Under the pieces are notes generated by a model. That model did not search any database. It saw only the letters and a list, made by a program, of their open reading frames with translations, and had not been told where the DNA came from. The translations under genes and the position numbers were made by a program. A stretch of 64,000 nucleotides of DNA. It comes from Phenylobacterium hankyongense. Its GTDB lineage: Bacteria > Pseudomonadota > Alphaproteobacteria > Caulobacterales > Caulobacteraceae. The DNA lies in NCBI RefSeq assembly GCF_003254505.1, contig NZ_QFYP01000001.1:728001-792000 (forward strand), in the 5' to 3' direction. This document shows, piece after piece, positions 9,810-48,733 of this stretch (position 1 is its first letter; each line of letters starts with the position of its first letter).

Positions 9810-10858
9810 TCCGCGAACTCCAGCACCGCCTGCAACAGGCCCGGCTCACCCTTGTCGAGGCGCTCGAACAGGGCCGGCGCGGCCTCGAAGGCGGCCGTGT
9901 GGGTGATCAGCGGGGTCAGCGACAGCACGCCCTCGTGCTGCAGTTCCACGGCGGTCCGCCAGAGCCGGGGCTTGGACCAGCGGTAGCTGGCCTCCGGGGC
10001 GACGCCGGAGATCTGCGAGCAGACCAGCTGGACGCGGTTGTGGTGGAACTCCTCGCCGAGCCGCAGCCCCGGGACCTCGCCCTGGAAGAAGCCCATGGCC
10101 ACCACCCGCGCGGAATAGGCCACCGCCCGGATCGCCTCGGCGAGCGCGGGGGGCGCGCCCGACACCTCGATGCAGACGTCGGCGCCGCGCCCCTGCGTGG
10201 CGGCCTTGATGGCCTCGGCGGCGCTGCCTGCCGTCGGGTCCAGGGCCTCGGCCGCGCCGTGCGCCAGGGCGATGGCGCGGCGATGCGGATCGGGATCGAC
10301 GGCGATCACCCGCGCGCCCGACGCCCGCGCCGCCTGGACCACGATCTGGCCCGGCACGCCGAGGCCGAACACCGCCACCACGTCGCCGATGCGGATCTGG
10401 GCGTCGTGCACCCCGTTCAGCGCCACCGCGCCGATATGGGAGAAGACGCCGATGCGGGGATCGGCGCCTTCGGGCATCCGCCGGTCGCGCGCATAGTCCG
10501 CGGTCGCCAGGTGGTGGGTCCGGTGGCCCCAGGTCCCGAAGATCCGGTCGCCGACCGCCAGGTCGTCGACGCCGGCGCCCACCTCGACGATCTCCCCCAC
10601 CTCCTCGTAGCCGAGGTTGCGCACGGGATATGGCCAGCTGGGCGCCTCGGCGGCCAGGAACAGGCGGGAGGGCTCGTCGAACCGCCGGTGCATGAAGGGA
10701 TTGGTGCCGCGGAACTGGGAGAGCTCGGTGCCGGCGCTCACTCCCGAGAACAGGGTGCGGACGCGCACTTCGCCGGGGCCCGGCGGCGCGACCTCAAGAG
10801 GGTCGAAGGCCAGCTCGCGCGGCGCTTTCAGGAACAGGGCGGAGGGGGACTGGGTCAT
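9806..10858 (-). CDS. MDR-superfamily dehydrogenase lacking zinc ligands (BchC/sugar-DH-like)
   Basis: A 350-aa medium-chain dehydrogenase/reductase. The GroES-like half starts near residue 20 and the Rossmann half has VAVFGLGVPGQIVVQ (about 163-177). The usual catalytic-zinc cysteine position reads FSGVSAGTE (Ser38 instead of Cys) and the usual GHE reads GYE (Tyr84 instead of His). The four-Cys structural zinc loop is also missing. It resembles the zinc-independent branch that includes BchC-like proteins. It is coupled by ATGA overlaps to the MFS gene upstream and the Gfo/Idh/MocA gene downstream, suggesting the two dehydrogenases act in sequence. Confidence 0.85.
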   Translation of the reverse strand: MTQSPSALFLKAPRELAFDPLEVAPPGPGEVRVRTLFSGVSAGTELSQFRGTNPFMHRRFDEPSRLFLAAEAPSWPYPVRNLGYEEVGEIVEVGAGVDDLAVGDRIFGTWGHRTHHLATADYARDRRMPEGADPRIGVFSHIGAVALNGVHDAQIRIGDVVAVFGLGVPGQIVVQAARASGARVIAVDPDPHRRAIALAHGAAEALDPTAGSAAEAIKAATQGRGADVCIEVSGAPPALAEAIRAVAYSARVVAMGFFQGEVPGLRLGEEFHHNRVQLVCSQISGVAPEASYRWSKPRLWRTAVELQHEGVLSLTPLITHTAAFEAAPALFERLDKGEPGLLQAVLEFAE

Positions 10859-32895: not shown

Positions 32896-34575
32896 TCAGG
32901 AGCGGACCTGTTCGTCCTTGCGCGTGCGCCGGCGTGGCGTGGCAGGGGGATCCGGCATCCGGCCGGAGACGGCCGCCTGGATGGTCTCCAGCAGCACCTC
33001 GGCGCGGAACGGCTTGGTGACGTGGCGATCGGCGCCGGCGCTCAGCGACATCTCCACGTGCTCGGCCATGGCGTGGGCGGAAAGCGCCACGATCGGCGTG
33101 CGCGGCAGCTGGTGTTCGGCCTCCAGGCGGCGGATCGCGCGGATCGCGCTCAGCCCGTCGAGCACCGGCATCTGCACATCCATCAGGATGACGTCGAAGC
33201 GCTCGGCCGCCACCGCCGCCAGCGCCTGGGCGCCGTCGCCGACCAGGATCAGTTCGACGTCGAGCTGGGCCAGGATCAGCTCCAGCAGCCGGCGGTTGGT
33301 GGCGTGATCGTCGGCCACCAGCACCCGCGTCCGGGCGCCCGCCGCGACCCGCACGGCCGGCGCGGCCGCCGTCGGTTCGACGCTGACGGCTGCGACCGCC
33401 CGCAGCGGCAGATGCAGGGTGAAGACCGAGCCTTCGCCGGGCCGTGAGCTGGCCGTCAGGACGCCGCCCATCAGCTCGGCCAGGCCGCGGGAGATCGCCA
33501 GCCCCAGGCCCGAGCCGCCGAACCGCTCGACGATCGAGCCGTCGGCCTGCTGGAAGCGGCCGAACAGTTCTTCCGCCCGGGCCGGCTCGAAGCCGATGCC
33601 GGAATCGCGGACCTCGAAGCCGAAGCCTTGGCCGTCCGTCGCAGGCGAAACGCGGGTGACGATCGAGCCCGTGGAGGTGAACTTCACCGCGTTGCTGATC
33701 AGGTTGGTCAGGATCTGCTGCAGCCTGAGCGGATCGCCGGTGACCGCCTCCGGGACGCCGGGATCGATGTCGACCTCGAAGGCGAGGCCCTTGGCCAGGG
33801 CCGCCTGCCGGAACAGGCTCGCCGAGCGTTCGACGACGACGCCGAGATCGAAGGGCTCGCTGCGGATCTCCAGCTTGCCGGCCTCGACGCGGGACAGGTC
33901 GAGCGCATCGGCCAGCAGCTGCTCCAGCACCTCTGCGGAGTCGATGATGGTGCGGACGAGCCGTTGCTGGCCCTCGGTGGCGCAGCTCTCGGCCAGCACG
34001 CTGGCCATGCCGACGATGCCGTTCAGCGGCGTGCGGATCTCGTGGCTCATGTTCGCCAGGAAGTCGGACTTGGCGCGGGTTGCGGCCTCCGCCTGCTGCA
34101 CGGCCTGGCGCAGGTCGATCACCAGCCCTTCCAGGTGCGGCCGTTCGCGGACGGCGCGCTCCTGTTCCTGCTTGCGGGCGACGTGGACCTCGACTCGCGC
34201 CTGGGCGATGTCGAAATCGATGGGCTTGGTGACGTAATCGTTGGCCCCGAGCTTCAGCGCCCTGACCACGTCGACGCTGGCGTCGCGGACGGTGACCATG
34301 ATGACCGGCAGCTCGAGTTGGGCGTGCCGCTCGCGGATGCGCGCCAGCACCTCGAAGCCGTCCATCTGCGGCATGACGATGTCGAGCAGCACCAGGTCGA
34401 ACGTCTCGCGCGCGATGAGGTCGAGGGCCTGCGGGCCGCTCTCGGCCTGCACGACGTCGAAGCCGCGCCGCTGAAAACCACGGCCGATGATGATCCGGTT
34501 GTCCTCCAGATCATCGACGACCAGGAGCCGGGGCCGCGCGAGACGCGCGATGCGTCCTTGATCGGGGTCCACCAT
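32896..34575 (-). CDS. Hybrid sensor kinase REC-HisKA-HATPase-REC, cytoplasmic
   Basis: A 559-aa soluble hybrid kinase. The N-terminal receiver (16-135) has phospho-acceptor Asp65 (LVLLDIVMP) and TKP Lys; a coiled linker (132-170) leads to the HisKA box [12 protein letters not shown] with His178, then the HATPase (N-box [25 protein letters not shown]). A second receiver with [15 protein letters not shown] is at the C-terminus. Start is uncertain: ATG 34575 is used; GTG 34572 has the best-spaced AGGAGG, and ATGs at 34590 and 34638 also exist. It is divergent from a single-receiver gene. Its first receiver is a close paralog of the one at 41811-43061. Confidence 0.92.
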
Positions 34576-34719
34576 CGCCTCCTGGTCCATTTGTCGCACC
34601 CTAACGCCAGCTCCCTTAATCGGGAGTGCATGGGCCATGAACCAGTTGGTTACGCTCGGCGGCTAGGATCGCCGTAAATCGGTCGGACCAGGTCTGGCCC
34701 AGCGGGGGAAAACGCGAGC

Positions 34720-35157
34720 GTGACGACAGACACCGACATCGAGCGCCCGCTGCGGGTCCTGCTGGCCGACGACCACCCGACCAACCGGGCGGTGGTGGAG
34801 GTCATCCTCAGCCTGATCTCGGTCGAGCTGGTGGCGGTCGAGGACGGCGCCCAGGCCGTCGACGCCTTCAAGGCGTCGGATTTCGACGTCGTGCTCATGG
34901 ACCTGCAGATGCCGGTCATGGACGGGCTGACGGCGATCCGCGAGATCCGCAAGTACGAGGCCGAGACCGGGCGGCGGCGCACGCCGATCCTGGCGGTCAC
35001 CGCCAACGCCATGTCCGAGCACATCGCCGCCTCCCGCGCGGCCGGCGCCGACCACCACATCTCCAAGCCGGTGGTGCCCGACACCCTGCTCACCGCGATC
35101 GCCGAGAAGATCGATGCGCTCAGCGACGCCGAGTCGGCCGCTCGCGCGGTCGGCTAG
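34720..35157 (+). CDS. Single-domain response regulator
   Basis: A 145-aa receiver protein without an output domain. Acidic pocket LLADDHP, phospho-acceptor Asp61 in DVVLMDLQMPVMDG, and the ISKPVV lysine are all present. It closely resembles the C-terminal receiver of the divergent hybrid kinase ([15 protein letters not shown]), so it may compete for, or relay, the same phosphate. It starts with GTG behind GGGGGAA. A C-terminal helical tail (about 25 residues) is not conserved. Confidence 0.9.
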   Translation: MTTDTDIERPLRVLLADDHPTNRAVVEVILSLISVELVAVEDGAQAVDAFKASDFDVVLMDLQMPVMDGLTAIREIRKYEAETGRRRTPILAVTANAMSEHIAASRAAGADHHISKPVVPDTLLTAIAEKIDALSDAESAARAVG

Positions 35158-35212: not shown

Positions 35213-36520
35213 CTAGAACCGCCAGTCGACGCCGAGCGCCCCGGTCAGGGCGTGGCCGCTGAAGTCGCCGCGCAGGTTGGCGTTGGTCTGCGCCGCGGTC
35301 CCGGCATAGAAGCTCGTGTCGTCGAAGATCCGGGCCCCCTGGAAATCGGTGTAGGCGAAGGCCGCGTGCACGACGGCGCCGGCGGCCAGCTCATGGCTGG
35401 CGCCCACGGCGTAGACCCGGCGGTCGCTGTCGGCGACGCCCGGCTCGCGCAGGTTGTCCGGCGTCGGCGTCGGGTCGAACTGGACGCCGCCGCGCACGGT
35501 CCAGCCGGCCGCCACGACATAGTCCGCGCCGACGGCCACCGAGGTGGTGTCCTTGTAGTTCTGCGGGATCACCGCGGTCTGGCCGGCGAAGCCGACCTGG
35601 ATGGCGTCGTACTTGCTCCAGCCCGAACGGACGATCTGGGCGTCGAGGGTCAGCGCCGGCGTCGCCGCCCAGCGGGCGGCCAGCGTCGCGGTCCACGGCG
35701 TCGAGAAGGCGGTGGTCGCGGGCGCGCTGAAGTTCGCGCCGGCCAGCGGGCCGGTGAGGCCCGAAAGCGACAGGGCCCCGCTGATCTTGTGGTCGACGGC
35801 GGAGCGGTAGCTGGCGCCGAGCGTCAGCTGCTCCAGGTGCGCCTGCGCGCCGACCGTCCAGCCGTAGTCCCAGCCGTCGCCGTGCAGGCTTTGCAGGCCG
35901 TCCGGTTGGGTGGGATCGAGGTTCGGCGACGCGGTGTCGAGCGCGGCCTTCATGTACTGGCCGTCGATTCCGACGCCGAGGTCCAGCCAGTCGGTGGCGC
36001 GCATGGCCACGGTGGCCTGGACGTCGGTGATGTCGATGCGGTTGCGCACGGTGTCGTAGCGGCCCCAGCCCGTGGCGCCGTAGTCGCCCTTCAGGCGGAA
36101 CGGCTGCTCGACGGAGAGGCCGACGGCGAACCGGTCGCCGAGCGGCATGGCGATGGCGCCGTTCAAGGCGGTGAAGTCCGCCGAACCGTCGGAGACGTGG
36201 GCCTGGCCGCCCACCGGAGTGGTGTAGCCGCCGGGCGCGATCGGCCGGGTGATGGTCGAACCGGTGTCGTCGAGATGGCTCGACATGTTGCGTTGCTGCA
36301 CGCCCAGGGAGATCTCCCGCGGGCTGCGGGCGATGGCCGCCGGGTTCCACCACAGCTGGCTGGCGCCGACGTCGGCCGCCTCGCCGGCGTTCGCCCGGCC
36401 CATGCCCTTGACCGAGATCTCGGCGGCCGCAAAGCCGCCCGCGAGCGCGTGGCCGGCGCTGACCAGGACGAGGGCGGCGCTCAGGCCACCCAACTGAAAC
36501 TTCGTATTGGACGCAGGCAC
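35213..36520 (-). CDS. Outer-membrane transport protein, OMPP1/FadL/TodX family
   Basis: A 435-aa outer-membrane channel for hydrophobic compounds such as long-chain fatty acids. A signal peptide (to ...AGHALA) is followed by the family start GGFAAAEISVKGMGRANAGEAA, which forms the N-terminal hatch, and WWNPAAIA. The barrel ends in DWRF. The GTG at 36520 is chosen because it begins the signal peptide and a weak GGGA lies about 7 bases upstream. It is 88 bases downstream of a histidine kinase gene on the same strand and has its own terminator. Confidence 0.9.
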   Translation of the reverse strand: MPASNTKFQLGGLSAALVLVSAGHALAGGFAAAEISVKGMGRANAGEAADVGASQLWWNPAAIARSPREISLGVQQRNMSSHLDDTGSTITRPIAPGGYTTPVGGQAHVSDGSADFTALNGAIAMPLGDRFAVGLSVEQPFRLKGDYGATGWGRYDTVRNRIDITDVQATVAMRATDWLDLGVGIDGQYMKAALDTASPNLDPTQPDGLQSLHGDGWDYGWTVGAQAHLEQLTLGASYRSAVDHKISGALSLSGLTGPLAGANFSAPATTAFSTPWTATLAARWAATPALTLDAQIVRSGWSKYDAIQVGFAGQTAVIPQNYKDTTSVAVGADYVVAAGWTVRGGVQFDPTPTPDNLREPGVADSDRRVYAVGASHELAAGAVVHAAFAYTDFQGARIFDDTSFYAGTAAQTNANLRGDFSGHALTGALGVDWRF

Positions 36521-36608
36521 GTGAATCCCGCCGTGGCTATCCCGGCCCAAGCGACCGTCAGCGACCCGATTGCACCGGAAACGGTTAGCGGGCCGTTTAC
36601 GGTAGCGC

Positions 36609-38012
36609 CTATGCCGCAAGCGATTCCGGCTCGTCGACGCGGCTTTCCTCGATGGTCAGCACGGCCGGCAGCCGGACCAGGAAGGACGAGCCTCGGCCGA
36701 CCTCGCTGGTCACCGATATGCCGCCGCCCATCAGCGCGCACAGCTTCTGGCTGACCGCCAGGCCGAGGCCCGTGCCGCCGTACTGGCTGGAGGTCGTGGC
36801 GCTCACCTGCGCGAAGTCCTGGAACAGCTTGGGCAGGTCCTTCTCGGAGATGCCGATGCCGGTGTCGTCGACGCGGATCTCGACCCAATCGCCGCCCGGC
36901 CGCTCGTCGCGCCGCACGCTGAGGGTGATCTGGCCGCTGCTGGTGAACTTGGCGGCGTTGCTCAGCAGGTTCAGCACCACCTGGCGCAGCTTGGTCTGGT
37001 CGGTGGTGACCGCGCCCATCTCGCCGATCGGCGCGACCACCAGCCGGTTGGCGTTCTGGTCCATCAGCGGACCGGCGGTGGCGGCCACGTCGTCGACGAA
37101 CCGGGCCAGCTCGAAGGTCTCCGCGGACAGCTCCACCGCATTGGACTCGATGCGCGACAGGTCGAGCACGTCGGTGACCAGGGCCAGCAGGTGCTGCCCG
37201 GCGGCGTTGATGCGCTGCAGGTCGGTGAGCTTCTGTTCGTCGGCGCCGGTGTCCTGGCCGTGTTCGAGCAGCAGCTCGCTGTAGCCGATCACCGCGTTCA
37301 GCGGGGTGCGGAACTCGTGGCTCATCTTGGCCAGGAAGATCGAGCGCGAGAGGTTGGCCCGCTCGGCGAGGTCCTTGGCCTGGTGCAGGCGCACGGCGGT
37401 GACGCGGTGGCGCTCGGCCTCCCGCTCCAGGTCGGAGCGCAGGGCGATGGTGCTGACGTAATAGATGGCCATCCAGGACATGTAGATCGTCGCCGACAGG
37501 ATGGAGATCCAGCCGACGGTCGTCAGGTTGGCGATCGGCACCCGCTCGGCGAAGCCGCCGTGCAGGGCGTAGGCCCCGTAGAACGCCAGCAGGTCGCCGA
37601 CGAACATGCCGACCACCAGCAGCGGGCGTTCGCCCAGGTAGAAGAAGCCCAGCAGCAGGGCCACCAGCAGCCACGGCAGCAACGGCGAACTGACGCCGCC
37701 GTAATGGAACGAGCCGTAGAGCGAGGCGAAGGCCAGGGTCTGGACGGAGATCAGCGCCACCAGCTGCAGGTTGCGCGTCATCTTCAGGATGAACGGCAGC
37801 GCCCAGAACGACCAGATCGAGAAGATCATCGTCCAGACGACGATGCCCGGCTGCGGATCGGTGAGATAGAGGAAGACGCAGATCGACTGCGCCATCAGCG
37901 GGCCGAAGAGGTGGGTGAACACGAAGTTCCGCGCCAGGCCCAGTTCGGACCTTTCGCGCTTGGCCGCCTCAGGCACAAACCAGTCGATCAGCTTAAGGAC
38001 TGTGTTCCACAT
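36609..38012 (-). CDS. Six-TM membrane histidine kinase (paralog A)
   Basis: A 467-aa kinase. Six hydrophobic helices (about 35-55, 58-77, 83-100, 108-126, 130-150, 165-190) form a membrane-embedded sensor without a large periplasmic loop. HisKA follows with KMSHEFRTPLNAVIGYSE (His232), then the HATPase (N-box NLLSNAAKFTSSG, DDTGIGI, GGTGLGLAVS). The sensor is a clear paralog of the divergent kinase at 38236-39702: both share DWF(V/I)P, GPL/GPF, YLTDP/FLDP, YGGV(S/T)SP and LPW. No receiver is fused, so the nearby single receivers are likely partners. GGAG lies 7 bases before the ATG. Confidence 0.92.
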   Translation of the reverse strand: MWNTVLKLIDWFVPEAAKRERSELGLARNFVFTHLFGPLMAQSICVFLYLTDPQPGIVVWTMIFSIWSFWALPFILKMTRNLQLVALISVQTLAFASLYGSFHYGGVSSPLLPWLLVALLLGFFYLGERPLLVVGMFVGDLLAFYGAYALHGGFAERVPIANLTTVGWISILSATIYMSWMAIYYVSTIALRSDLEREAERHRVTAVRLHQAKDLAERANLSRSIFLAKMSHEFRTPLNAVIGYSELLLEHGQDTGADEQKLTDLQRINAAGQHLLALVTDVLDLSRIESNAVELSAETFELARFVDDVAATAGPLMDQNANRLVVAPIGEMGAVTTDQTKLRQVVLNLLSNAAKFTSSGQITLSVRRDERPGGDWVEIRVDDTGIGISEKDLPKLFQDFAQVSATTSSQYGGTGLGLAVSQKLCALMGGGISVTSEVGRGSSFLVRLPAVLTIEESRVDEPESLAA

Positions 38013-38235
38013 GCCCGCTCCGCCCCCGTCGAGAGGGCTCCCCCATGTTCGGGCGGGAAATGAACACGGCTCCGATTAAGAACTGGTGCATGCCGTCGTC
38101 CGGCGCGGATAACCCGATCTTAATTCGGCCAAGCGATCCTGCCCTGGGCTCGAGGTAGATCTCGCGGCCTGGCAAGTGGATCGGCGCGTTTGTTCCTTGC
38201 GATCCTTGCCGCAATTCACGGGGCGGGCTGGATAC

Positions 38236-39702
38236 ATGTCAACAGCAGGGCAGCAGGCGTCGAATCCGGTGGATCGACTGGTCGACTGGTTCATCCCCAA
38301 GGAATTGGCGGACCAGCGCGAGAAGCGCCAGCTGGCGCGGATGTTCCTGATCAGCCACCTCTGCGGGCCGTTCCTCGGCAACGTGGTGCCGGGCGCGCTC
38401 TACTTCCTCGATCCGACCCCGGGCTATCCGGTCGGCGTGCTCGCCGCCTCGATCACCGGGTTCTGGATCTTCCCGTTCCTGCTGAAGGCGACGGGCAAGT
38501 ACAACCTGCTGTCGTTCATCTCGGTGCAGAACCTGATCTTCTGCATCCTGTGGAGCTGCTTCTATTACGGCGGGGTGACCTCGCCGACCCTGCCGTGGGT
38601 GCTGACCATCCCGCTGCTGACCTTCTGCTACCTCGGCCCGTCGCCGAAGCTGCGGTTGCTGGCGCTCGGGCAGTTCGCGATCAACTTCACGGCCTTCATC
38701 GCCATCTACAACCTCGCGCCGACGCCGTTGAACGACACCCCGATCGAGGCGCTGCAGGGGCTGGGCATCGTCTCCACCCTGGCGGCGCTGGCCTATGTGG
38801 CGCTGATGGCCCTCTATTACCGGCGGATCCTGGACTCCGGCGCCGAGCTGGAGGTCGAGATGCGCGGCCACCTGGCCACCGCCGCCCAGCTGCGCCGCGC
38901 CACCGCGGAAGCCGAGCGGGCGAGCGCCGCCAAGGCCGAATTCGTCGCCAGCATGAGCCACGAGCTGCGCACGCCGCTGAACGCGGTGATCGGCTACAGC
39001 CAGATGCTGCTCGAGGACGCCGCCGACGAGCACGACGAGGAATCCGCCGCCGACCTGGAGAAGATCCACCGCGCCGGCCACCACCTGCTGCGGCTGGTCA
39101 ACGAGGTCCTCGACCTCTCCAAGATCGAAGCCGGCAAGATGGAGCTCGCGCCCGAAGACGTGGCGGTCGCCGAATTCCTCTCCGCCGTGGTCGAACACCA
39201 GCGCAGCAAGGCCGAGGCCAAGGGCGTCACCCTGGCGCTGGAACTGGAGGACGGCCTGGGCGCCGCGCTCTGGGACGGCCAGCGGGTGCGCCAGGCGCTC
39301 GGCCAGATCGTCGAGAACGCCGTCAAGTTCACCGAAAAGGGCAAGGTCACCGTCCTGGCGCACCGCAACGCCTGCCGGCCGCACGACGAGATCGTCGTCC
39401 AGGTCCGCGACACCGGCGTCGGCATCGCTCCGGAGATGCTGCCCCAGCTGTTCGAGAAGTTCACCGTCGCCCACGACGCCAGCGCCAGCAAATACGGCGA
39501 CACCGGCCTGGGCCTGGCGCTCAGCCGCGCGCTCACCGACCTGATGGGCGGCGAGATCTCCGCGCAGAGCAAGGTCGGCGAGGGCAGCTGCTTCACGCTC
39601 ACCCTGCCGGTCGCCCCGTCGGCCCGCCGCAAGCGGCGCGCCCGTGCGGCGCTGGGACCCGCCGACGACGCGGCCCAGACGCCTGAACTCACCGCCGCCT
39701 GA
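38236..39702 (+). CDS. Six-TM membrane histidine kinase (paralog B)
   Basis: A 488-aa kinase with the same design as the divergent paralog: six helices (about 36-58, 64-84, 92-111, 116-134, 138-160, 173-197), a coiled-coil linker (200-235), HisKA with SMSHELRTPLNAVIGYSQ (His242) and an HATPase (VENAVKFTEKG, DTGVGIA, GDTGLGLALS). A basic tail (SARRKRRARAA) follows the catalytic domain. The receiver gene at 39729 starts 26 bases downstream, so they form a two-gene operon. Sensors embedded in six helices often detect lipophilic small molecules; the ligand is unknown. Confidence 0.92.
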   Translation: MSTAGQQASNPVDRLVDWFIPKELADQREKRQLARMFLISHLCGPFLGNVVPGALYFLDPTPGYPVGVLAASITGFWIFPFLLKATGKYNLLSFISVQNLIFCILWSCFYYGGVTSPTLPWVLTIPLLTFCYLGPSPKLRLLALGQFAINFTAFIAIYNLAPTPLNDTPIEALQGLGIVSTLAALAYVALMALYYRRILDSGAELEVEMRGHLATAAQLRRATAEAERASAAKAEFVASMSHELRTPLNAVIGYSQMLLEDAADEHDEESAADLEKIHRAGHHLLRLVNEVLDLSKIEAGKMELAPEDVAVAEFLSAVVEHQRSKAEAKGVTLALELEDGLGAALWDGQRVRQALGQIVENAVKFTEKGKVTVLAHRNACRPHDEIVVQVRDTGVGIAPEMLPQLFEKFTVAHDASASKYGDTGLGLALSRALTDLMGGEISAQSKVGEGSCFTLTLPVAPSARRKRRARAALGPADDAAQTPELTAA

Positions 39703-39728
39703 GCCCGAGACTTCGGAAGCCACCCGCC

Positions 39729-40103
39729 ATGACCAAGATCCTGCTCGTCGAAGACAATGAGATGAACCGCGACATGCTCACCCGGCGGCTGACGCGGCAC
39801 GGGTTCGACGTGTGCTGCGCCCCCGACGGCCCCTCCGGGGTGCGGATGGCCGAGGACGAGCGGCCGGCGCTGATCCTCATGGACGTGGCGCTGGGCGAGA
39901 TGGACGGCTGGGAAGCCACCACCCTGATCAAGGAGCGCGCCTCCACCGCCGCCATCCCGATCATCGCGCTCACCGCCCACGCGCTGGCCAGCGATCGTCA
40001 GAAGAGCGTCGAGGTGGGCTGCGCCGACTTCGACACCAAGCCGGTGGACCTGCCGCGGCTCCTGTCCAAGATCAACGCCTGCCTGGAGGGGGCCGCCGCC
40101 TGA
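39729..40103 (+). CDS. Single-domain response regulator (DivK-like)
   Basis: A 124-aa stand-alone receiver. Acidic pocket VEDNE, phospho-acceptor Asp52 (LILMDVALGEMDG), the switch Thr in ALTAH and the lysine in DTKPVD are intact. Layout and length match DivK-type regulators that act through protein-protein contacts. It sits 26 bases after the six-TM kinase B gene and ahead of a strong terminator, so the kinase is its probable phosphodonor. The alpha-oxoamine synthase gene follows 238 bases later. Confidence 0.93.
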   Translation: MTKILLVEDNEMNRDMLTRRLTRHGFDVCCAPDGPSGVRMAEDERPALILMDVALGEMDGWEATTLIKERASTAAIPIIALTAHALASDRQKSVEVGCADFDTKPVDLPRLLSKINACLEGAAA

Positions 40104-40138
40104 GGCGGACGCCCTCCTCCGCCCGCTCCGGTCCGCAG

Positions 40139-40162
40139 CGCCCGCCCTCCGGCGGGCGTTTT
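40139..40162 (+). terminator. Intrinsic terminator after the kinase-receiver operon
   Basis: Stem CGCCCGCC (40139-40146) with GGCGGGCG (40151-40158), loop CTCC, followed by TTTT (40159-40162). A textbook terminator 35 bases after the receiver stop; it makes the next gene a separate transcription unit. Confidence 0.8.
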
Positions 40163-40214
40163 CGTGTCTGGCGCTTCGCGCGCGACCTCAGCGCCGGGCC
40201 AAGGTCATCGGTCA

Positions 40215-40309
40215 TTAACCGCAAGTCTCAAGCCGCGGTTAACTGCGAATTGAAACATTGCCTAAAGAGTATGTACACCGCAAAATAACATCTTCACCGT
40301 ACTTATAAC
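40215..40309 (+). promoter_or_regulatory. AT-rich regulatory region of the alpha-oxoamine synthase gene
   Basis: This is one of the few AT-rich stretches in the window. It holds a perfect inverted repeat TTAACCGC (40215-40222) and GCGGTTAA (40235-40242) 12 bases apart. A CtrA-like box TTAA-N7-TTGA (40239-40253) overlaps the second arm, with a -35-like TTGAAA at 40250-40255. A -10-like TATAAC lies at 40304-40309, about 33 bases before the ATG. The exact promoter is not clear, but several binding sites look likely. Confidence 0.5.
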
Positions 40310-40341
40310 TCCACAACCTGAGAAACAGGGTGGGGTTATTA

Positions 40342-41682
40342 ATGCTAAAAGCATCGTTCAACTACACGCCGCCAGATGCCTTGACCGGCAGCATGCGCGA
40401 CTACCGTTATCCGCGAGGTCCTGACCTTCAGTCGCGCATTGCGGGATTTTTCAAATGGCAGAACCTGCGCCGCCAGCACAGCCTGTGGCCATTCTCGCGC
40501 TCGACGGAAGAAGGCCCCGCCACCGTCTGCGCGGCGCGCGACGACGCCGGCGGCAAGATGCGCGGCGTGAACTTCGCCAGCCAGGACTACCTGAGCATGT
40601 CGACCAATCCGGCGATCAAGAAGGTCGCCCAGGATGTGATCGAGGAGTTCGGGGTCCATAGCGCCGGCTCCGCGGCGCTGGTCGGCAACACCTCCCACTC
40701 GGTGCTGCTGGAGCGCAAGATCGCCGACTTCCTCGGCATGGAGGAGGCGATCCTGTTCCCCACCGGCTGGGCGGCCGGCTACGGGGTGATCAAGGGCCTG
40801 GTGCGCTCCACCGACCACGTGGTCATGGATGCGCTGGCGCACACCTGCCTGCAGGAAGGCGCCGCCGCGGCCACCAAGAACATCTACCTGTTCCGCCACA
40901 ACATGGTCGGCGAATGCCGCAAGTGGCTGGAGAAGATCCGCGCCAAGGACACCGAGAACGGCATCATGGTGGTGACCGAGGGCCTGTTCTCGATGGACTC
41001 CGACACCCCGGACCTCGTGGGCCTGCAGGCGCTGTGCGACGAGTTCGAGGCCACCTTGATGGTCGACGTCGCCCACGACCTGGGCAACCTCGGCAAGGAC
41101 GGCAAGGGCTTCATCGGCGACCAGGGCATGCTGGGCAAGGTCGACCTGGTGATGGGCAGCTTCTCCAAGACCTTCGGCTCCAACGGCGGCTTCGTCGGCT
41201 GCCGCAGCCGCGAGGTGAAGGAGTACCTGCGCTTCTTCAGCCCGCCGTGCACCTTCTCCAACGCCCTGTCGCCGATGCAGGCGGCCACCGTGCTGAAGGC
41301 CTTCGAGATCATCGAAAGCCTCGAAGGCCAGGTGCTGCGCGACAAGCTGATGACCAACATCCTCAGCCTGCGCCGCCAGCTGGTCGACGCCGGCTTCGAG
41401 GTCTACGGCGACCCCTCGGCCATCGTCTGCGTGAAGATGGGCTCGGAAGGCCTGGCGCGGCTGGTCAGCCGCCGGCTCCCCACCGCCGGCCTGATCGCCA
41501 ACCTCGTCGAGTTCCCCGCCGTGCCCAAGGGCCAGGCGCGGTTCCGGATGCAGGTGATGGCCAACCACACCGAGCAGAACATCCGCGACGCGGTGGCCTC
41601 CCTGCGCGACGCCTTCGAGGCGGGCCGCGAGGAGTTCGACTGGATGAACAGCGAAGCCGAGCCGCTCAAGGCCACGGCGTAA
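40342..41682 (+). CDS. Alpha-oxoamine synthase family PLP enzyme (SPT/KBL/AONS/CqsA-like)
   Basis: A 446-aa fold-type I PLP enzyme that would join an amino acid to an acyl-CoA with loss of CO2, giving an aminoketone. Landmarks: HSAGSAALVGNTSHSVLLE (106-124), His167 that should stack on PLP, VDVAHDLGNLG with Asp242 and His245, and PLP lysine Lys276 in GSFSKTFGSNGG. An N-terminal extension of about 75 residues (SLWPFSRSTEEGPA) precedes the core. No biotin or sphingolipid gene is nearby; the neighbours are six-TM kinases and receivers, as in CqsA/LqsA autoinducer loci. Serine palmitoyltransferase-type activity is an alternative. GGTGGGG precedes the ATG at 40342. Confidence 0.85.
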   Translation: MLKASFNYTPPDALTGSMRDYRYPRGPDLQSRIAGFFKWQNLRRQHSLWPFSRSTEEGPATVCAARDDAGGKMRGVNFASQDYLSMSTNPAIKKVAQDVIEEFGVHSAGSAALVGNTSHSVLLERKIADFLGMEEAILFPTGWAAGYGVIKGLVRSTDHVVMDALAHTCLQEGAAAATKNIYLFRHNMVGECRKWLEKIRAKDTENGIMVVTEGLFSMDSDTPDLVGLQALCDEFEATLMVDVAHDLGNLGKDGKGFIGDQGMLGKVDLVMGSFSKTFGSNGGFVGCRSREVKEYLRFFSPPCTFSNALSPMQAATVLKAFEIIESLEGQVLRDKLMTNILSLRRQLVDAGFEVYGDPSAIVCVKMGSEGLARLVSRRLPTAGLIANLVEFPAVPKGQARFRMQVMANHTEQNIRDAVASLRDAFEAGREEFDWMNSEAEPLKATA

Positions 41683-41706
41683 GACAACGGAACCTGCCGC
41701 AAGGCG

Positions 41707-41740
41707 AAGGGCAGGCGCGGATCCCGCGCCTGCCCTTTTT
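41707..41740 (+). terminator. Strong intrinsic terminator after the synthase gene
   Basis: A perfect 12-bp stem GGGCAGGCGCGG (41709-41720) with CCGCGCCTGCCC (41724-41735), loop ATC, flanked by AA and TTTTT. It can end the synthase transcript from the left; the minus-strand hybrid kinase gene ends at 41811, so it may serve both directions. Confidence 0.85.
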
Positions 41741-41810
41741 GTTGCGTGAAATCCGGACGGATCGCCGGGCCGGCCGACGGGCCGAGGCTGGGACCGCGGA
41801 GCCGTCCGGC

Positions 41811-43061
41811 TCAGGCGGCGCGGGCGGCCTGGAGCGCCAGCGGCAGCTCGACGCGGAAGACGGCGCCGGCGCCGGGTCGGCCATCGGCGGTGATCGTCCC
41901 GCCCATCAGCTGCACCAGGCCATGGCAGATCGCCAGGCCCAGGCCGACGCCGCCGAACCGGCGGGTGAGCGAGCCGTCGGCCTGTTCGAAGGCCCGGAAC
42001 AGCCGCGGGCCGACCTCGGCCTCGAACCCGACGCCGGTGTCGCGCACCTCGATCGCCAGGCCCCCGGCGTCGGCGCGGGCGAGCGACAGCACGACCTCGC
42101 CGGCGTCGGTGAACTTCACCGCATTGTCGAGCAGCTTGGCGATGATCTGGCCGAGGCGCCGGGGATCGGCCTGCGCGACGCCCTGGGCGTCGGCGGCGAC
42201 CTTCACCTCGAACCCCAGCCCCTTCTCCGCGGCCTTCGCGCGGGCGGCGGCCGCGGCGGCGTGCGCCAGCGGCCCGATCTCGGTCGGCTCGGGGGCCAGC
42301 GTCAGCCCGCCGGCGGTCAGGTCCAGGGTGTCCAGCAGGTCGGCCACCACCCCGTGCAGCTGATCGGCGGAGGCATTGATGATGCCGGCCATGCGCTGCT
42401 GCTGCTCGCTGAGCTCGGTCTTGGTCAGCATCTGGCCCATGGCGATCATGCCGTTCAGCGGCGTGCGCAGCTCGTGGCTGACGATGACCAGGAATTCGTC
42501 CTTGGCCTTGTTGGCGGCCTGGGCCTCGCCCATGGCGACGCGCAGCTGTTCGTTGGTCTGGACGAGCTCGACGGTGCGCGCGGCGATCTTCTGCTCCAGC
42601 TCCTCGTTGGAGCGGCTCAGCGCCTCGTTCGCCCGCCGCACATGCTCCTCGGCCCGGCGGCGGCCGGCCTGGGTCGACACCCGGGCGAGCGCCACGGAGA
42701 AGTCCACCGGCTTGGTGATGTAGTCGTTCGCGCCCAGGGTCAGCGCCTCGACGATGTCCTGGCTCTCGGTCTTGCCGGTCACCATGATCACCGGCAGGGC
42801 GATGTCGGTGTGATGCTCGCGGATGCGCCGCAGGACCTCCAGCCCGTTCATGTCCGGCATCATCACGTCGAGCAGGACCACGTCGAAGGTCTGGCGCTCG
42901 ATCTCGGCCAGGGCGCCCAGGCCGCTGTCGGCCTCGGCGATCTCGAAGCCGCGGCGCTGGAAGCGCCGGCCGAGGATGGCGCGGTTGTCGGCGATGTCGT
43001 CGACGATCAGGATCCGCGTCGGCGTCTCGTCGCTGTTCGGGTAAGCGCTGTCGTCGAGCAT
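41811..43061 (-). CDS. Hybrid sensor kinase REC-HisKA-HATPase, cytoplasmic
   Basis: A 416-aa soluble kinase: receiver (15-130; Asp65 in VVLLDVMMPDMNG), coiled-coil linker (138-190; EELEQKIAARTVELVQTNEQ), HisKA with IVSHELRTPLNGMI (His196) and HATPase (KLLDNAVKFTDAG, DTGVGF, GVGLGLAIC). Its receiver and linker are paralogous to those of the kinase at 32896-34575 (shared DNR.I.GRRFQRRGF and GANDY.TKP.DF), but no C-terminal receiver is present. It converges on the alpha-oxoamine synthase gene. A kinase with an N-terminal receiver can take phosphate from the neighbouring kinases. Confidence 0.9.
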   Translation of the reverse strand: MLDDSAYPNSDETPTRILIVDDIADNRAILGRRFQRRGFEIAEADSGLGALAEIERQTFDVVLLDVMMPDMNGLEVLRRIREHHTDIALPVIMVTGKTESQDIVEALTLGANDYITKPVDFSVALARVSTQAGRRRAEEHVRRANEALSRSNEELEQKIAARTVELVQTNEQLRVAMGEAQAANKAKDEFLVIVSHELRTPLNGMIAMGQMLTKTELSEQQQRMAGIINASADQLHGVVADLLDTLDLTAGGLTLAPEPTEIGPLAHAAAAAARAKAAEKGLGFEVKVAADAQGVAQADPRRLGQIIAKLLDNAVKFTDAGEVVLSLARADAGGLAIEVRDTGVGFEAEVGPRLFRAFEQADGSLTRRFGGVGLGLAICHGLVQLMGGTITADGRPGAGAVFRVELPLALQAARAA

Positions 43062-43308
43062 CCGAAACCTGTCCCCCTGTCGCCCGGGCGAGAGAGTGGC
43101 AGGGCGCCTGTTAAGTAATCGTGCACGAACACCTGCAACGCGGACGCCGATTGCAGCAAAGAGTGGCGCCGAGGCGCGCCATACGGTCGCACATCGTCGG
43201 CGACACGTCATGCGTGTGTCGGATATCAGTGTTACCGCGCCTCAGTCTTTCTTAAGGTTTACGGCTCTATTGGTCAGCCGAAGATTCAAAACACTCAGGA
43301 CTTCGGTG

Positions 43309-43956
43309 ATGTCTGCAATCAAACAAGCGGCCCTGGCCGCACTGGCCGTCGCGGCGATCTCCACGACCGCCCACGCCCAAACCACGGACCAGTGGTTCGT
43401 GCACGCCGGCCCGGCCCTGGTGGCCCCCGACGAGAGCGCCACGATGACGGCGGGCGGCCAGGCGGTGCCCGGCGCCAACGTCTCCATCGACTCGCGCTGG
43501 ACGTTCGAGGGCGAGATCGGCCGCTATCTGACCCGCAACGTCGCCATCGCCGTGGCCGCCGGCTATCCGCCGACATTCACCGTGAAGACGGCCGGGTCGC
43601 TGAGCGGCCTCGGCACGGCCGGCCAGATGACCGGCGGCCCCGCCGGAATCCTGCTGCAGTACCACTTCAACCGCGAGGGCCGCATCCAGCCCTACGTCGG
43701 CGCCGGCGCCTCGTTCCTCGTGGTGTTCGGCACCAAGGACGGCGTGATGACCGACCTGAAGGCGAAGAGCGCCATGGGCACCGCCCTGCAGGTCGGCTCC
43801 GACTTCATGCTGAACGACCGCTGGGGCGCCTTCATCGACGTCAAGAAGGCCTGGGTCGGCACCCTGGCGACAGGCTCGATGGGTCCCAATCCGGTGCGCG
43901 CCAAGGTCAACGTCGACCCGCTGGTCACCAACATGGGCGTGACCTACCACTTCTGA
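43309..43956 (+). CDS. OmpW family outer-membrane protein
   Basis: A 215-aa protein with a signal peptide (MSAIKQAALAALAVAAISTTAHAQ) and an eight-stranded barrel pattern. RIQPYVGAGASFLVVFGT and the C-terminal VTNMGVTYHF are family hallmarks. OmpW proteins form narrow hydrophobic channels and are often induced by osmotic or nutrient stress. The start at 43309 is set by the signal peptide and an AGGA about 8 bases upstream; the longer open frame upstream is not gene-like. It is divergent from the hybrid kinase. Confidence 0.9.
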   Translation: MSAIKQAALAALAVAAISTTAHAQTTDQWFVHAGPALVAPDESATMTAGGQAVPGANVSIDSRWTFEGEIGRYLTRNVAIAVAAGYPPTFTVKTAGSLSGLGTAGQMTGGPAGILLQYHFNREGRIQPYVGAGASFLVVFGTKDGVMTDLKAKSAMGTALQVGSDFMLNDRWGAFIDVKKAWVGTLATGSMGPNPVRAKVNVDPLVTNMGVTYHF

Positions 43957-43986: not shown

Positions 43987-44472
43987 TCAGTCCCTGTTGC
44001 GGCGCTCGGGCCCCGTGTAGTCGGGGTCCGCCCGGCGCCGGCGGTCCGGCCCGAAATAGTCGGCGGAGCGCACGAACGGCCGCGGCGCGTGGATCAGCGC
44101 GTCCATGCGGCGTAGCAGGCCGGTGATCGTGAACGGCTTCGACAGGAACTCGGTGACGCCGGCGTCGCGCGCAGCCTTTACGCGCCGCTGCTCGGTGTAG
44201 CCGGTGAGCATCAGGATCGGCACATAGGGATTGGGGCTCGACGGGTCGCTGCGGATGCGGCGGACCAGCTGGATGCCGTCGTCGCCCTGGCCGAGGTTCT
44301 GGTCGACCACGACCACGTCGAACGGCATCTCCTTCATCAGCTTGAAGGCCCGATCGGGCGTGGCGGCGTCGGCGATATCCTGCGCGCCCACGCTGGCGAG
44401 GATCGATTTCACGATCTCCGCCGCATGGCGATTGTCGTCGACGACGAGAAGGCGAAGAGCTTTTAGATCCAT
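43987..44472 (-). CDS. Single-domain response regulator with RR-rich C-terminal tail
   Basis: A 161-aa receiver. VVDDNRH forms the acidic pocket, Asp57 (FDVVVVDQNLGQGDDG) is the phospho-acceptor, and LSKPFT supplies the lysine. The tail has two copies of a GP(D/E)RR motif (YFGPDRRRR and YTGPERRNRD), seen in a number of alphaproteobacterial receivers and possibly a docking element. It converges on ompW with 30 bases between the stops. No kinase is fused, so it is one of several orphan receivers in this region. Confidence 0.9.
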   Translation of the reverse strand: MDLKALRLLVVDDNRHAAEIVKSILASVGAQDIADAATPDRAFKLMKEMPFDVVVVDQNLGQGDDGIQLVRRIRSDPSSPNPYVPILMLTGYTEQRRVKAARDAGVTEFLSKPFTITGLLRRMDALIHAPRPFVRSADYFGPDRRRRADPDYTGPERRNRD

Positions 44473-44811: not shown

Positions 44812-46077
44812 TCACGCCGCGGCGGGCGACAGCAGACCCTCGAAGAACGCCCGCACATAGTGGGAGGCGGCTGTCGCGGCGGTGATGTCGGGCGCCCACA
44901 GGTGCAGTTCGGCGGCGGCGTTGATCATGGCGGTGACCATCTGGGCGGCGATGTTGACGTCCACCGGCCGCACCGAGCCGTCGGCGATCCCGTCGCAGAT
45001 GATCGAGGCGAAGCGGTGGGAGACGCGGTCGAACTGCGCCATCAGGTCCGGCTGGATGGCCTCAGGGACCGTGGTCAGGGCGGAGAGCCGCAGCAGCGGC
45101 AGGTCGCCGTCCAACTGGAAATGCACCAGGGCGGCGGAGGCCTGGGCCAGCACCTTCAGGCCCGAGCCGCCCTCGGCTTCGGCCGCGCGGATGGCGCGCC
45201 ACATGATCTGGCAGGTGCGCTCGAAGCAGGCCACCACCAGCTCATCCTTGGTCGCATTGTGGTGGTAGAACGCCCCCTTGCTGACCTGGAGCCTGGCGGA
45301 GATCCGCTCCACCGAGGCGCCGTGGTAGCCCTCCTGGTTGATCAGGTCGGTGGCGGCGCGCAGGAACAGTTCCGCCGAGGCCCCGGCGCTGGGATCGCCC
45401 TCGCGCGCCAGGCGGGGGATCTCGAAGCCTGGCCAGGCCGCGCCCGGCGCCGCCAGGCCGTCCTCCAGCACCGACAGCATGCGGCTGGCCAGGCGGTCGT
45501 AGTCGCCGGGCTCGCTGCGCGTGATCCAGACCACCGACCACAGCACCTCCGACAGCAGCAGGTGCGCGCGGGCGTTGCGGTCGGTCCGCGCCAGCGGGGC
45601 GGCGGCCGGGCCCTCAAGCAGGTCGCGCGCATGCCGGAACATATCGACAAAAGCCTCGCCGAGCGGCCGGGCGTTCAGTGCGCGGACGTCGTTGAACACC
45701 GCGATCTGCTCGGCCTCGCCGAGGGCGACGCGGCGCTTGAAGTCGAAATAGGCTCCGATGAAACCGCGCAGCCGGGCGCGGTCGTCCGCCCCGCTCGCCT
45801 GGCCGGCGGCGATCAGCGCGTCGAAACGGTCGATGGCCCGCTGCAGGCAGGCGACCGCCAGCTCCTCCTTGTTCCGGAAGTAGTAGACGACGGCGGTGGG
45901 CACGAGGTCGAGGCGGGCGGCGACCTCGCCCAGCGTCATGCCGCGCACGCCCTTGCGGTTCAGCACCTCCACCGCGGAGGCGACAATGGCGTTGCGGCGC
46001 GCTTCGTAGCGCCGCGTCGGCTTGCGCGCGGCCGGGCCGTCGGGGCTTGCGGCGGCGCCTTCGGAGTTTGCGGCCAT
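44812..46077 (-). CDS. Tandem TetR protein (two TetR domains in one chain)
   Basis: A 421-aa regulator made of two TetR units. The first HTH is at 25-72 (MTLGEVAARLDLVPTAVVYYF), with its own ligand domain to about 215. The second HTH is at 233-282 (SVERISARLQVSKGAFYHHN) followed by a second all-helical domain. TetR proteins usually have about 200 aa and act as dimers, so this chain could be a covalent pseudo-dimer or bind two different sites. It is followed on the other strand by a TonB-receptor operon starting 163 bases away; its ligand is unknown. Confidence 0.92.
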   Translation of the reverse strand: MAANSEGAAASPDGPAARKPTRRYEARRNAIVASAVEVLNRKGVRGMTLGEVAARLDLVPTAVVYYFRNKEELAVACLQRAIDRFDALIAAGQASGADDRARLRGFIGAYFDFKRRVALGEAEQIAVFNDVRALNARPLGEAFVDMFRHARDLLEGPAAAPLARTDRNARAHLLLSEVLWSVVWITRSEPGDYDRLASRMLSVLEDGLAAPGAAWPGFEIPRLAREGDPSAGASAELFLRAATDLINQEGYHGASVERISARLQVSKGAFYHHNATKDELVVACFERTCQIMWRAIRAAEAEGGSGLKVLAQASAALVHFQLDGDLPLLRLSALTTVPEAIQPDLMAQFDRVSHRFASIICDGIADGSVRPVDVNIAAQMVTAMINAAAELHLWAPDITAATAASHYVRAFFEGLLSPAAA

Positions 46078-46240
46078 CCCGGTTCATAGCCAGAAACGCC
46101 GGCGCCGACCATTGGGCCTTACGACGTACGCGGACTGGGCGACGGCGCCATGTGACCGGACCATGGCAAATCGGAAAAGCTATGCTATCGCCTTGCGGCC
46201 GGGGGGCGACGGACGTGTCTGAGTTGGCGTGTGGGGGGCC

Positions 46241-48190
46241 ATGACATTTCACCGGCGCGTGCTGGCTTGCGGATGCGGGAGCGGCGGACTGCGGCCCGCC
46301 CTGATCGTCCTGGCTTTGGCGGCTGGAGGCGTGGCGCGGGCCGACGAAGCGCCCCCTCCGCAATCGGGCTCAGGCGCGCTCGGCGCCCTCTCCCTGGACG
46401 AGCTTTCCGAGATCAAGGTCACCTCGGTGTCCAAGCGCGCCGAGCCGATCAGCCAGGCCCCCTCGTCCGTCTACGTCATCACTAACGACGCCATCCGCCG
46501 CTCCGGCGCGATCAGCATTCCCGAAGCCCTGCGCAATGCGCCGAACCTCGAGGTGATGCGGATCGACGCCCTGGATTATTCGATCACCGCGCGCGGCTTC
46601 GCCGGCTTCGAGGCGGCCAACAAGCTGCTGGTGCTGATCGACGGGCGCAGCGTCTACACCCCGCTGTTCTCCGGCGTGGACTGGGACCAGAACCAGGTCC
46701 TGCTCGACGATGTCGACCGGATCGAGGTGATCAGCGGTCCCGGCGGCACCCTGTGGGGGGCCAACGCGGTCAACGGCGTGGTCAACATCACCACCCGCAG
46801 CGCCTTCGACACGCAAGGCTCCCTGGCCGAGGTCAATCTCGGATCTCTCGATAGCGACGTCCGGCTTCGCTACGGCGGACAGCTCGGGGAGTCCGCCGCC
46901 GGCCGCATCTACTTCACGGCCTTCAGGCGCGGCGAGCTGCGCAAGGACGACGGCGCCCATGCCAACGACGGCTGGGACGGCGTGCAGGGCGGCTTCCGCA
47001 CCGACTGGGCCGGCGACCGGGACACCCTCACCCTGCAGGGCGACGCCCACGACGGCACGATCAGCGACTCCCTGGGTCTGCCCGGCTATGTGCGCGGCGG
47101 CAACGTCCTGGGCCGCTGGACGCGGCGGATGGAGAACGGCTCCACCGTCGAGCTGCAGGCCTACTACGACCAGTTCGCCCGCAACGCGCGGCTGATCCAC
47201 GACGGCCTGAAGACCTATGACATCCAGGCGCAGCACGCCTTCAGCTGGCTGGGCCGCCACCAGATCATCTGGGGCGGCGGCTACCGCATCACCGAGGACG
47301 ACTTCTACACGCTCACCGAACCGCAGCTGCTGACCCCGACCCACCGTCGCGTCGACATCGGCAACCTGTTCGCCCAGGACGAGTTCGCGGTGCGGACCGA
47401 CCTGACCCTCACGCTGGGGCTGAAGCTCGAGACCAACACCTATACCCGCGCCGAGCTGATGCCGAACGCCCGCCTGGGGTGGCGGGTGTCGGACCGGCAG
47501 TTCCTGTGGGCGGCGGTGTCGCGGGCGGTGCGCAATCCCTCGCGGATCGAGCGCGACTTCTCCCTCCCCGGGATCGTCGATCCGGGCCACATGGGCTCGG
47601 AGAAGCTGATCGCCTACGAACTGGGCTACCGCGGGCGGATGACGGACGCCGCCAACGTCTCCGTTTCGCTCTACTACAACGCCTACGATCAGCTGCGGAC
47701 CAACGACCTCAGCCCCGGCGGGGTGCTGCCGATCTATGTGGGCAACTCCATGGAGGGCGACACCTACGGGATCGAGGCCTGGGCCGACTACGACGTACGC
47801 TCCTGGTGGCGGCTCAGCGTCGGCGGATCGATCCTGGGCAAGGACTTCCGGCTGAAGCCCGGCAGCCTCGACATCGCCCAGTTCGAGGCCGCCGGGGTCG
47901 ATCCCGACTACTGGGTCAAGCTGCGCTCGCAGATGCGGCTTGGCGACCGGGTCACGCTGGACGCCGGCCTGCGCTACTACGACGCCATCCCGACCTCGCA
48001 GGCCTCCGGCTATGTCGGCGCAAAGGCCTATCTGGACGGCGACCTGCGGCTGGCTTGGCGGGTCACCGACGCCCTGGAGCTCTCTCTGGTCGGGCAGAAC
48101 CTGCTGCACGACCGGCACGCCGAAGCGAGCGAGTCCCGGCGCGACAAAATCCAGCGCAGCGTCCTCCTCGGCCTTCGCTGGGTCCACTGA
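46241..48190 (+). CDS. TonB-dependent receptor of the YfiR-associated type
   Basis: A 649-aa outer-membrane receptor with a signal peptide (to ...GGVARA). It has the entry motif LSLDELSEIKVTSVSKRAEPIS followed by a plug (SSVYVITNDAIRRSG, LLVLIDGRSVYTPLF, GPGGTLWGANAVNGVVNI) and a barrel ending LLGLRWVH. This plug type is typically found together with YfiR-like proteins and signalling enzymes, as here. The ATG at 46241 is used; a GTG at 46229 is in frame. It is the first gene of a three-gene operon with no gap to yfiR. Confidence 0.9.
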   Translation: MTFHRRVLACGCGSGGLRPALIVLALAAGGVARADEAPPPQSGSGALGALSLDELSEIKVTSVSKRAEPISQAPSSVYVITNDAIRRSGAISIPEALRNAPNLEVMRIDALDYSITARGFAGFEAANKLLVLIDGRSVYTPLFSGVDWDQNQVLLDDVDRIEVISGPGGTLWGANAVNGVVNITTRSAFDTQGSLAEVNLGSLDSDVRLRYGGQLGESAAGRIYFTAFRRGELRKDDGAHANDGWDGVQGGFRTDWAGDRDTLTLQGDAHDGTISDSLGLPGYVRGGNVLGRWTRRMENGSTVELQAYYDQFARNARLIHDGLKTYDIQAQHAFSWLGRHQIIWGGGYRITEDDFYTLTEPQLLTPTHRRVDIGNLFAQDEFAVRTDLTLTLGLKLETNTYTRAELMPNARLGWRVSDRQFLWAAVSRAVRNPSRIERDFSLPGIVDPGHMGSEKLIAYELGYRGRMTDAANVSVSLYYNAYDQLRTNDLSPGGVLPIYVGNSMEGDTYGIEAWADYDVRSWWRLSVGGSILGKDFRLKPGSLDIAQFEAAGVDPDYWVKLRSQMRLGDRVTLDAGLRYYDAIPTSQASGYVGAKAYLDGDLRLAWRVTDALELSLVGQNLLHDRHAEASESRRDKIQRSVLLGLRWVH

Positions 48191-48733
48191 ATGAGGGGCG
48201 TGCGCAGAGCCCTGGGTCTGCTGACGCTCGCCGCGCTGTGCGCCGCGGCGACGGTCGGCGGCGCGTGGGCGCAGCCGACCCTGGAGTTCTCCGTCAAGGC
48301 CGCCTTCCTGACCAAGTTCCCGGCCTTCGTGACCTGGCCGGAAAGCGCCATGACGCCGTCGGAGCCGCTGCGCATCTGCGTGGTGGGCGACGACCCCTTC
48401 GGCCCCGCCCTGGAGCAGAGCGCGCAGGGCCGGGCGCTGGAGGACCACCCGCTCGCGGTGCGCCGGCTGGCCGTCGTCGACCGCGCCAGCGGCTGCCACG
48501 TGCTCTACGCTCTCGGTTCTTCGCGGCAGTCCGCGGCCCAGGCGCTGCAGGCCGTGCGCGGCGCGCCCGTGCTCACAGTCACCGATGCGGCGCAGGGAGG
48601 CGCGCGCGGCATGATCCACTTCGTGGTGTTCCAGGATCGCGTCCGGTTCCAGATCGACGCCCTCCAGGCGGCGCAGAGCGGCCTGTCGATGAGCTCAAAG
48701 CTGCTGGCCCTGGCGCTGACGGTGAAGCGATGA
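48191..48733 (+). CDS. YfiR/DUF4154 family periplasmic protein
   Basis: A 180-aa exported protein (signal peptide to ...GGAWAQP). EFSVKAAFLTKFPAFVTWPE, LRICVVGDDPFG and the C-terminal MIHFVVFQDRVRFQIDALQAAQSGLSMSSKLLALA are the standard DUF4154 landmarks. In Pseudomonas, YfiR is a periplasmic inhibitor of a membrane diguanylate cyclase; here the following gene is a membrane histidine kinase, so YfiR may act on that sensor. Its ATG directly follows the TonB stop and its own stop overlaps the kinase start (ATGA), so the three are strictly coupled. Confidence 0.9.
   Translation: MRGVRRALGLLTLAALCAAATVGGAWAQPTLEFSVKAAFLTKFPAFVTWPESAMTPSEPLRICVVGDDPFGPALEQSAQGRALEDHPLAVRRLAVVDRASGCHVLYALGSSRQSAAQALQAVRGAPVLTVTDAAQGGARGMIHFVVFQDRVRFQIDALQAAQSGLSMSSKLLALALTVKR

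Follow-up and report, generated by a model that had tools for sequence, protein, structure and literature searches.

Does the alpha-oxoamine synthase (AOS) encoded in a 64,000-nucleotide stretch of the Phenylobacterium hankyongense genome (3.84 Mb; assembly GCF_003254505.1, contig NZ_QFYP01000001.1, positions 728,001 to 792,000, hereafter the window) produce a signal that is read by HK1 and HK2, the two six-transmembrane (six-TM) histidine kinases encoded beside it? An earlier note on this DNA had suggested so by analogy with the signalling systems of Vibrio and Legionella. We consider it probable that the locus encodes a self-contained lipophilic-signal system in which the product of the synthase is sensed by HK1 and HK2. 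The reading frames placed by the note were confirmed by a frame check of the window, and Pfam domains and strands bear out its description of an HK2/receiver unit with HK1 as a divergent paralogue. The gene order is FadL (-), HK1 (-), HK2 (+), the lone receiver REC_b (+), the synthase (+), a REC-HK hybrid (-) and OmpW (+), and this core is bordered by a REC-HK-REC hybrid and further receivers (Table 1).

The answer starts from what genomes record directly, namely gene families, gene order, recurrence and co-occurrence. A scan of named genomes turned up 280 encoding stretches. The 80 best were retrieved; all locus counts refer to these 80 and are inflated by near relatives, the search alignment having been seeded by relatives of the window. 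The loci belong to Caulobacterales, Rhizobiales, Sphingomonadales, Rhodobacterales, Rhodospirillales and Mycobacterium, with further ones from metagenome-assembled genomes labelled Burkholderiaceae, Acidobacteria and Desulfonatronospira. A six-TM kinase of the same sensor family, called with a hidden Markov model made from the same loci, lies in the fetched flanks of 63 of the 80. At least two six-TM kinase genes are found in 55 loci (53 by a second gene map from which overlaps had been removed) and a REC_b-like receiver (at least 55% identity) in 48. Of the 63 sensor loci, 53 have a single sensor of the HK1 type together with a single one of the HK2 type. In L061, L071 and L091, there is a 4-base overlap between the synthase frame and that of the next kinase. 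The linkage seen by the earlier note in a single strain therefore extends far beyond it.

Surveys of whole genomes point the same way. Within the genus, the synthase is present in five of 101 genomes, that of P. hankyongense among them, and these same five have the sensor. As had been supposed, the synthase is conserved as a set with the six-TM kinases and the receiver. Across 337 genomes of the class, the synthase (E<=1e-90) was found in six, again including our own, the sensor (E<=1e-6) in 13 and both in five; a sensor at E<1e-40 occurs in five genomes, all of which carry the synthase, the exceptions being G347, with a synthase and no sensor, and eight genomes with weaker sensor matches and no synthase. 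Synthase and sensor are about 786 kb apart in G500 and on different contigs in G575, two genomes with one sensor within a longer frame and no kinase pair. Since the four positives other than our own form two pairs, each from one genus, Fisher values for the class survey overstate independence, and the genus survey and the unlinked cases weigh more. Given these co-occurrence counts, which include genomes where the genes are unlinked, the association goes beyond chance, and a chance neighbourhood was rejected.

Seventeen loci lack a sensor in their flanks. Three lie on short contigs (L029, L031, L058), and the 14 with full flanks comprise eight from Mycobacterium, four from Methylobacterium, L021 (Beijerinckiaceae) and L051 (Sphingomonas parva). 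In the genomes of L021 and the four Methylobacterium loci, a divergent kinase pair and REC_b are present outside the fetched flanks; for L036, L037 and L021, their positions exceed the length of the synthase contig and hence fall on another contig. S. parva (L047, L051) has two synthase copies and two sensor pairs, one pair beside the L047 synthase. A genome search returned neither a sensor kinase nor a REC_b match in the eight Mycobacterium genomes, which together with G347 are the exceptions to the co-inheritance of synthase and receptor. The mycobacterial loci (L052, L065, L066, L070, L078, L079, L081 and L085, at about 9001-10300) encode a synthase 62-66% identical to that of the window, in a common neighbourhood with patatin-like, cysteine-dioxygenase-like and amidotransferase genes and, in six of them, an AMP-ligase.

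HK1 and HK2 are paralogues whose sensors are 41% identical, and they are the only two sensor matches in their own genome (E<=0.001). The probable start of HK2 is an internal ATG, because a protein 99% identical over the sensor measures 488 aa. The shared motif reported in the note is borne out as YGGxxSPxxPW, with S, P and W identical in 120 of 120 aligned sensors. By prediction, the HK2 sensor folds as a helical bundle (predicted local distance difference test score 93.5), a compact membrane domain that would suit a lipophilic ligand, as the note had argued. A solved six-TM domain of the adenylyl cyclase type is a structural match over most of this model. In the class III adenylyl cyclases (Rv1625c/Cya), this domain drives a cyclase and here a histidine kinase; the identity is 11%, and no chain among the PDB sequences was matched by the sensor profile at E<=1.

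Other genes recur at these loci. Outer-membrane barrels are encoded at 52 of the 80 (OmpW at 31, another OMP_b-brl family at 29, FadL at 5) and at 49 of the 63 sensor loci. The same queries gave no barrel or GGDEF-EAL match at 13 control AOS loci (11 of the cqs/lqs type and two housekeeping loci of our own genome), a comparison of control stretches of 8 to 14 kb with family loci of up to 19 kb. The FadL/TodX and OmpW families are known in connection with hydrophobic compounds. REC-GGDEF-EAL proteins occur in 28 of the 63 sensor loci (architecture confirmed by Pfam in four of four tested) and two-receiver kinases in nine, with no locus holding both; the window is of the two-receiver-kinase type through its REC-HK-REC hybrid. 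The place of the REC-HK hybrid, between synthase and OmpW, is taken by an HK+REC gene in L013-L017. Besides the synthase and kinases, 27 neighbour clusters were listed, each in at least four loci; ten were scanned with Pfam, OmpW and FadL by way of other members. Among the clusters examined, an AMP-ligase family appears in ten loci (six mycobacterial) and an SDR family in nine.

For the ligand, its transport route, the direction of signalling and the phosphotransfer partners, we infer the following scheme. In a condensation of an amino acid with an acyl thioester, the synthase would form a molecule of the alpha-aminoketone type or a derivative of it. This signal may leave the cell and enter its neighbours through an outer-membrane barrel, here FadL or OmpW, and bind inside the membrane bundles of HK1 and HK2. 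Binding would alter how the lone receiver and other receivers are phosphorylated, by transfer or withdrawal; in many relatives, one of these other receivers would be a REC-GGDEF-EAL protein that sets the level of cyclic di-GMP (c-di-GMP), and elsewhere a hybrid relay would take its place.

The main rival to this scheme makes the synthase an output: HK1 and HK2 would sense another membrane or hydrophobic cue, and the receivers would control an amino-lipid or a sulfonolipid-like compound that alters the envelope. An adjacent gene can indeed be a target of regulation just as it can make the ligand, the structure of the synthase is closest to SPT/KBL, barrels recur at the loci, and Mycobacterium retains the enzyme without the kinases; the AMP-ligase and SDR families suit a lipid or a signal pathway alike. 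Nevertheless, the window, L012 and L013 have a hairpin between receiver and synthase, and Pfam shows no DNA-binding domain in the lone receiver that is inherited with the set, so that control of the synthase by this receiver is not obvious. Moreover, the predicted sensor fold is the one that can be replaced by CqsS in a chimera. We regard an output role as rather unlikely.

A second alternative is a true cqs/lqs system, with a divergent CqsA/LqsA making an alpha-hydroxyketone (AHK) related to CAI-1 or LAI-1 for a receptor of the CqsS/LqsS type. Like the locus described here, cqsA/cqsS of Vibrio, lqsA/lqsS/lqsT/lqsR of Legionella and jqsA/jqsS/jqsR of Janthinobacterium combine an AOS-fold enzyme, a six-TM histidine kinase and a receiver, and the order of N-terminal six-TM sensor and histidine kinase is present in HK2 as in CqsS and LqsS. 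The pairing of HK1 and HK2 likewise has a precedent in Legionella, where, in the available part of PMC10692735, two homologous kinases (LqsS and LqsT) serve one signal. The synthase shares S273 and W143 with CqsA/LqsA (11/11 and 8/11 rows) and not with other AOS rows. In the AOS tree, the synthase family and CqsA/LqsA form separate clades, each with support of 100/100, and a sister grouping of the two was not rejected by the approximately unbiased test (p-AU 0.37). The claim of the earlier note that these are the same three parts as in cqs/lqs was nonetheless not supported on closer comparison. The synthase scores 189.8 bits against the CqsA/LqsA model NF005526, whose cut-off is 428, and two ordinary SPTs score no less (207 and 213 bits). 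The sensor profile reached only 0.3%, 0.1% and 1.9% probability against CqsS/LqsS in hhalign, run on shallow alignments of 11 (CqsS) and 5 (LqsS) rows, whereas the positive control of CqsS against LqsS gave 99.9% (E 2e-32); the kinase cores match CqsS/LqsS-type kinases at just 16-49 bits. Further differences are the place of the synthase outside the CqsA/LqsA clade, the kinase pair, the outer-membrane barrels, the REC-GGDEF-EAL proteins and the mainly alphaproteobacterial distribution. A link to c-di-GMP is a common feature, known for Legionella from the literature and indicated here by the REC-GGDEF-EAL genes of relatives. Taken together, a divergent cqs/lqs system is highly improbable.

The synthase itself was distinguished from housekeeping enzymes, as the note had anticipated. 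Fourteen NCBIfam models match it, all below their curated cut-offs: SPT models NF047599 (239 of 500 bits), NF047600 (228 of 640) and NF047603 (187 of 670), KBL TIGR01822 (216 of 493), BioF TIGR00858 (279 of 426) and HemA TIGR01821 (176 of 339) are among them. On NF047599, SPTs of relatives reach 661 and 668 bits. In the AOS tree that the note had proposed, the family forms its own clade (100/100) and does not group firmly with SPT or KBL; its deep grouping with SPT has support of 31/7. From the family, this tree takes the window and 23 of the 80 loci; for SPT, it takes seven of ten loci (two checked with NCBIfam, both passing an SPT cut-off) and one PDB sequence. Its references have long branches and include only a single row each for KBL and HemA and two for BioF. 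K276, D242, H245 and H167 are present in all 24 family rows and common to all AOS rows; we take K276 to be the lysine that binds pyridoxal 5'-phosphate (PLP) and the other three to be PLP contacts. Unlike SPT and KBL, which have asparagines at these places, the synthase has Q81 and G146; it also carries a conserved N-terminal part of about 70 residues and is kinase-linked. BioF, BioB and BioA are encoded together at one other locus of the genome and HemA at another, all above curated cut-offs; a putative bioD beside bioF passed no NCBIfam model at E<=1e-40. That the synthase stands in by chance for a housekeeping SPT, KBL, BioF or HemA is thus barely credible and was rejected: it shares their fold, its best general model is bioF and its genome has no match to one SPT model at E<=1e-100, but the model scores, the tree, the paralogues elsewhere, the accessory distribution and linkage described above, and a related genome (G011) holding both an SPT above cut-off and a synthase of this family all speak against it.

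We also propose, tentatively and as somewhat doubtful, that the system is independent of cqs/lqs across Alphaproteobacteria and other phyla, the synthase being a new AOS subfamily whose altered pocket (Q81, G146) would yield a new lipophilic signal for six-TM receptors of the adenylyl cyclase fold. The available text of a review (PMC3376566) describes AHK signalling as apparently confined to a group of aquatic gammaproteobacteria, and clusters resembling lqsA/lqsS are named there for Ralstonia, Nitrococcus, Burkholderia and Polaromonas; that of PMC3566124 places jqsA in Janthinobacterium. The available parts of these two sources and of PMC8895600, on two-component quorum sensing, do not mention alphaproteobacteria. 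Among the papers listed by literature searches, whose coverage left out most subscription journals, none dealt with this synthase clade. A distinct synthase-receptor set of Caulobacterales, Rhizobiales, Sphingomonadales and Rhodobacterales would bring a further class of signal, tied to c-di-GMP, to bacteria associated with soil and plants. It would supply a cognate synthase for a cyclase-fold six-TM receptor and make what such domains sense directly testable. If the proposal is true, the six-TM receptor design, whose members in cyclases still go by the name of orphan receptors, would have a second natural kind of pairing with a synthase. It would then also have to be asked by which receptor the product of the mycobacterial enzyme is read in mycobacteria.

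Table 1. Features of the locus, in window coordinates.
Feature	Coordinates	Strand	Basis
REC-HK-REC hybrid kinase	32896..34638	-	Pfam
REC_a, a lone receiver; may be a further output, uncertain member	34720..35157	+	Pfam
FadL/TodX-type outer-membrane protein; open frame runs into HK1 end, same strand	35213..36619	-	Pfam
HK1, 467 aa: six-TM sensor (residues 1-205), HisKA (H232), HATPase	36609..38012	-	Pfam
HK2 (start probably at 38236), divergent from HK1: six-TM sensor, HisKA, HATPase	38176..39702	+	Pfam, sensor model
REC_b, 124 aa: a receiver domain alone, 26 bases downstream of HK2	39729..40103	+	Pfam
Terminator-like hairpin (GC hairpin, T-run) 3' of REC_b	40139..40158	+	Hairpin scan
Inverted repeat TTAACCGC-N12-GCGGTTAA 5' of synthase; possible operator	40215..40242	.	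Repeat search
AOS, 446 aa; PLP lysine K276; proposed signal synthase	40342..41682	+	Pfam Aminotran_1_2 in frame 40330-41682, NCBIfam, tree
Terminator-like 23-nt stem (83% complementary) and T-run 3' of synthase	41698..41746	.	Repeat search
REC-HK hybrid (REC, HisKA, HATPase), between synthase and OmpW	41811..43211	-	Pfam
OmpW-family barrel; open frame, signal-peptide-like start at ATG 43309	43096..43956	+	Pfam
Lone receiver REC_c; membership uncertain	43987..44472	-	Pfam

The regulatory DNA around the synthase gave a mixed picture. The note had described an elaborate promoter: the 183 bases between the REC_b hairpin and the synthase are indeed, at 50% GC, AT-richer than the window and contain the inverted repeat, but a simple scan found no sigma-70-type promoter, and the same repeat search did not report the inverted repeat in L012, L013 or L016. 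The terminator claimed after the synthase is present as the 23-nt stem, which the simple scan missed while reporting the REC_b hairpin.

More distant relatives of the synthase are encoded on plasmids of Salipiger (L174, 8001-9215; 49%), with no kinase gene annotated within 8 kb, and of Streptomyces clavuligerus (L175, 8001-9275; 41%), in a record unannotated there; as clues to the chemistry, they were dropped as too distant. A synthase 76% identical (P0079) is labelled Corallococcus terminator, a myxobacterium, and reflects either transfer or a contaminated assembly. An apparent receiver-synthase fusion of 616 aa (L083, 1206-3056) was discarded: a ribosome-binding-like AAAGGAG and an ATG stand just before the synthase, and read-through or an effect of the assembly is the likelier reason for the single frame. 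Elsewhere in the window, a CHASE8-HisKA-HATPase-REC hybrid kinase (47479-50505, +) directly follows a TonB-dependent receptor (46229-48190). A single protein with two tandem TetR DNA-binding domains is encoded at 44812-46077 (-), and a 61% identical copy lies near the synthase in Phenylobacterium sp. J367 (L012).
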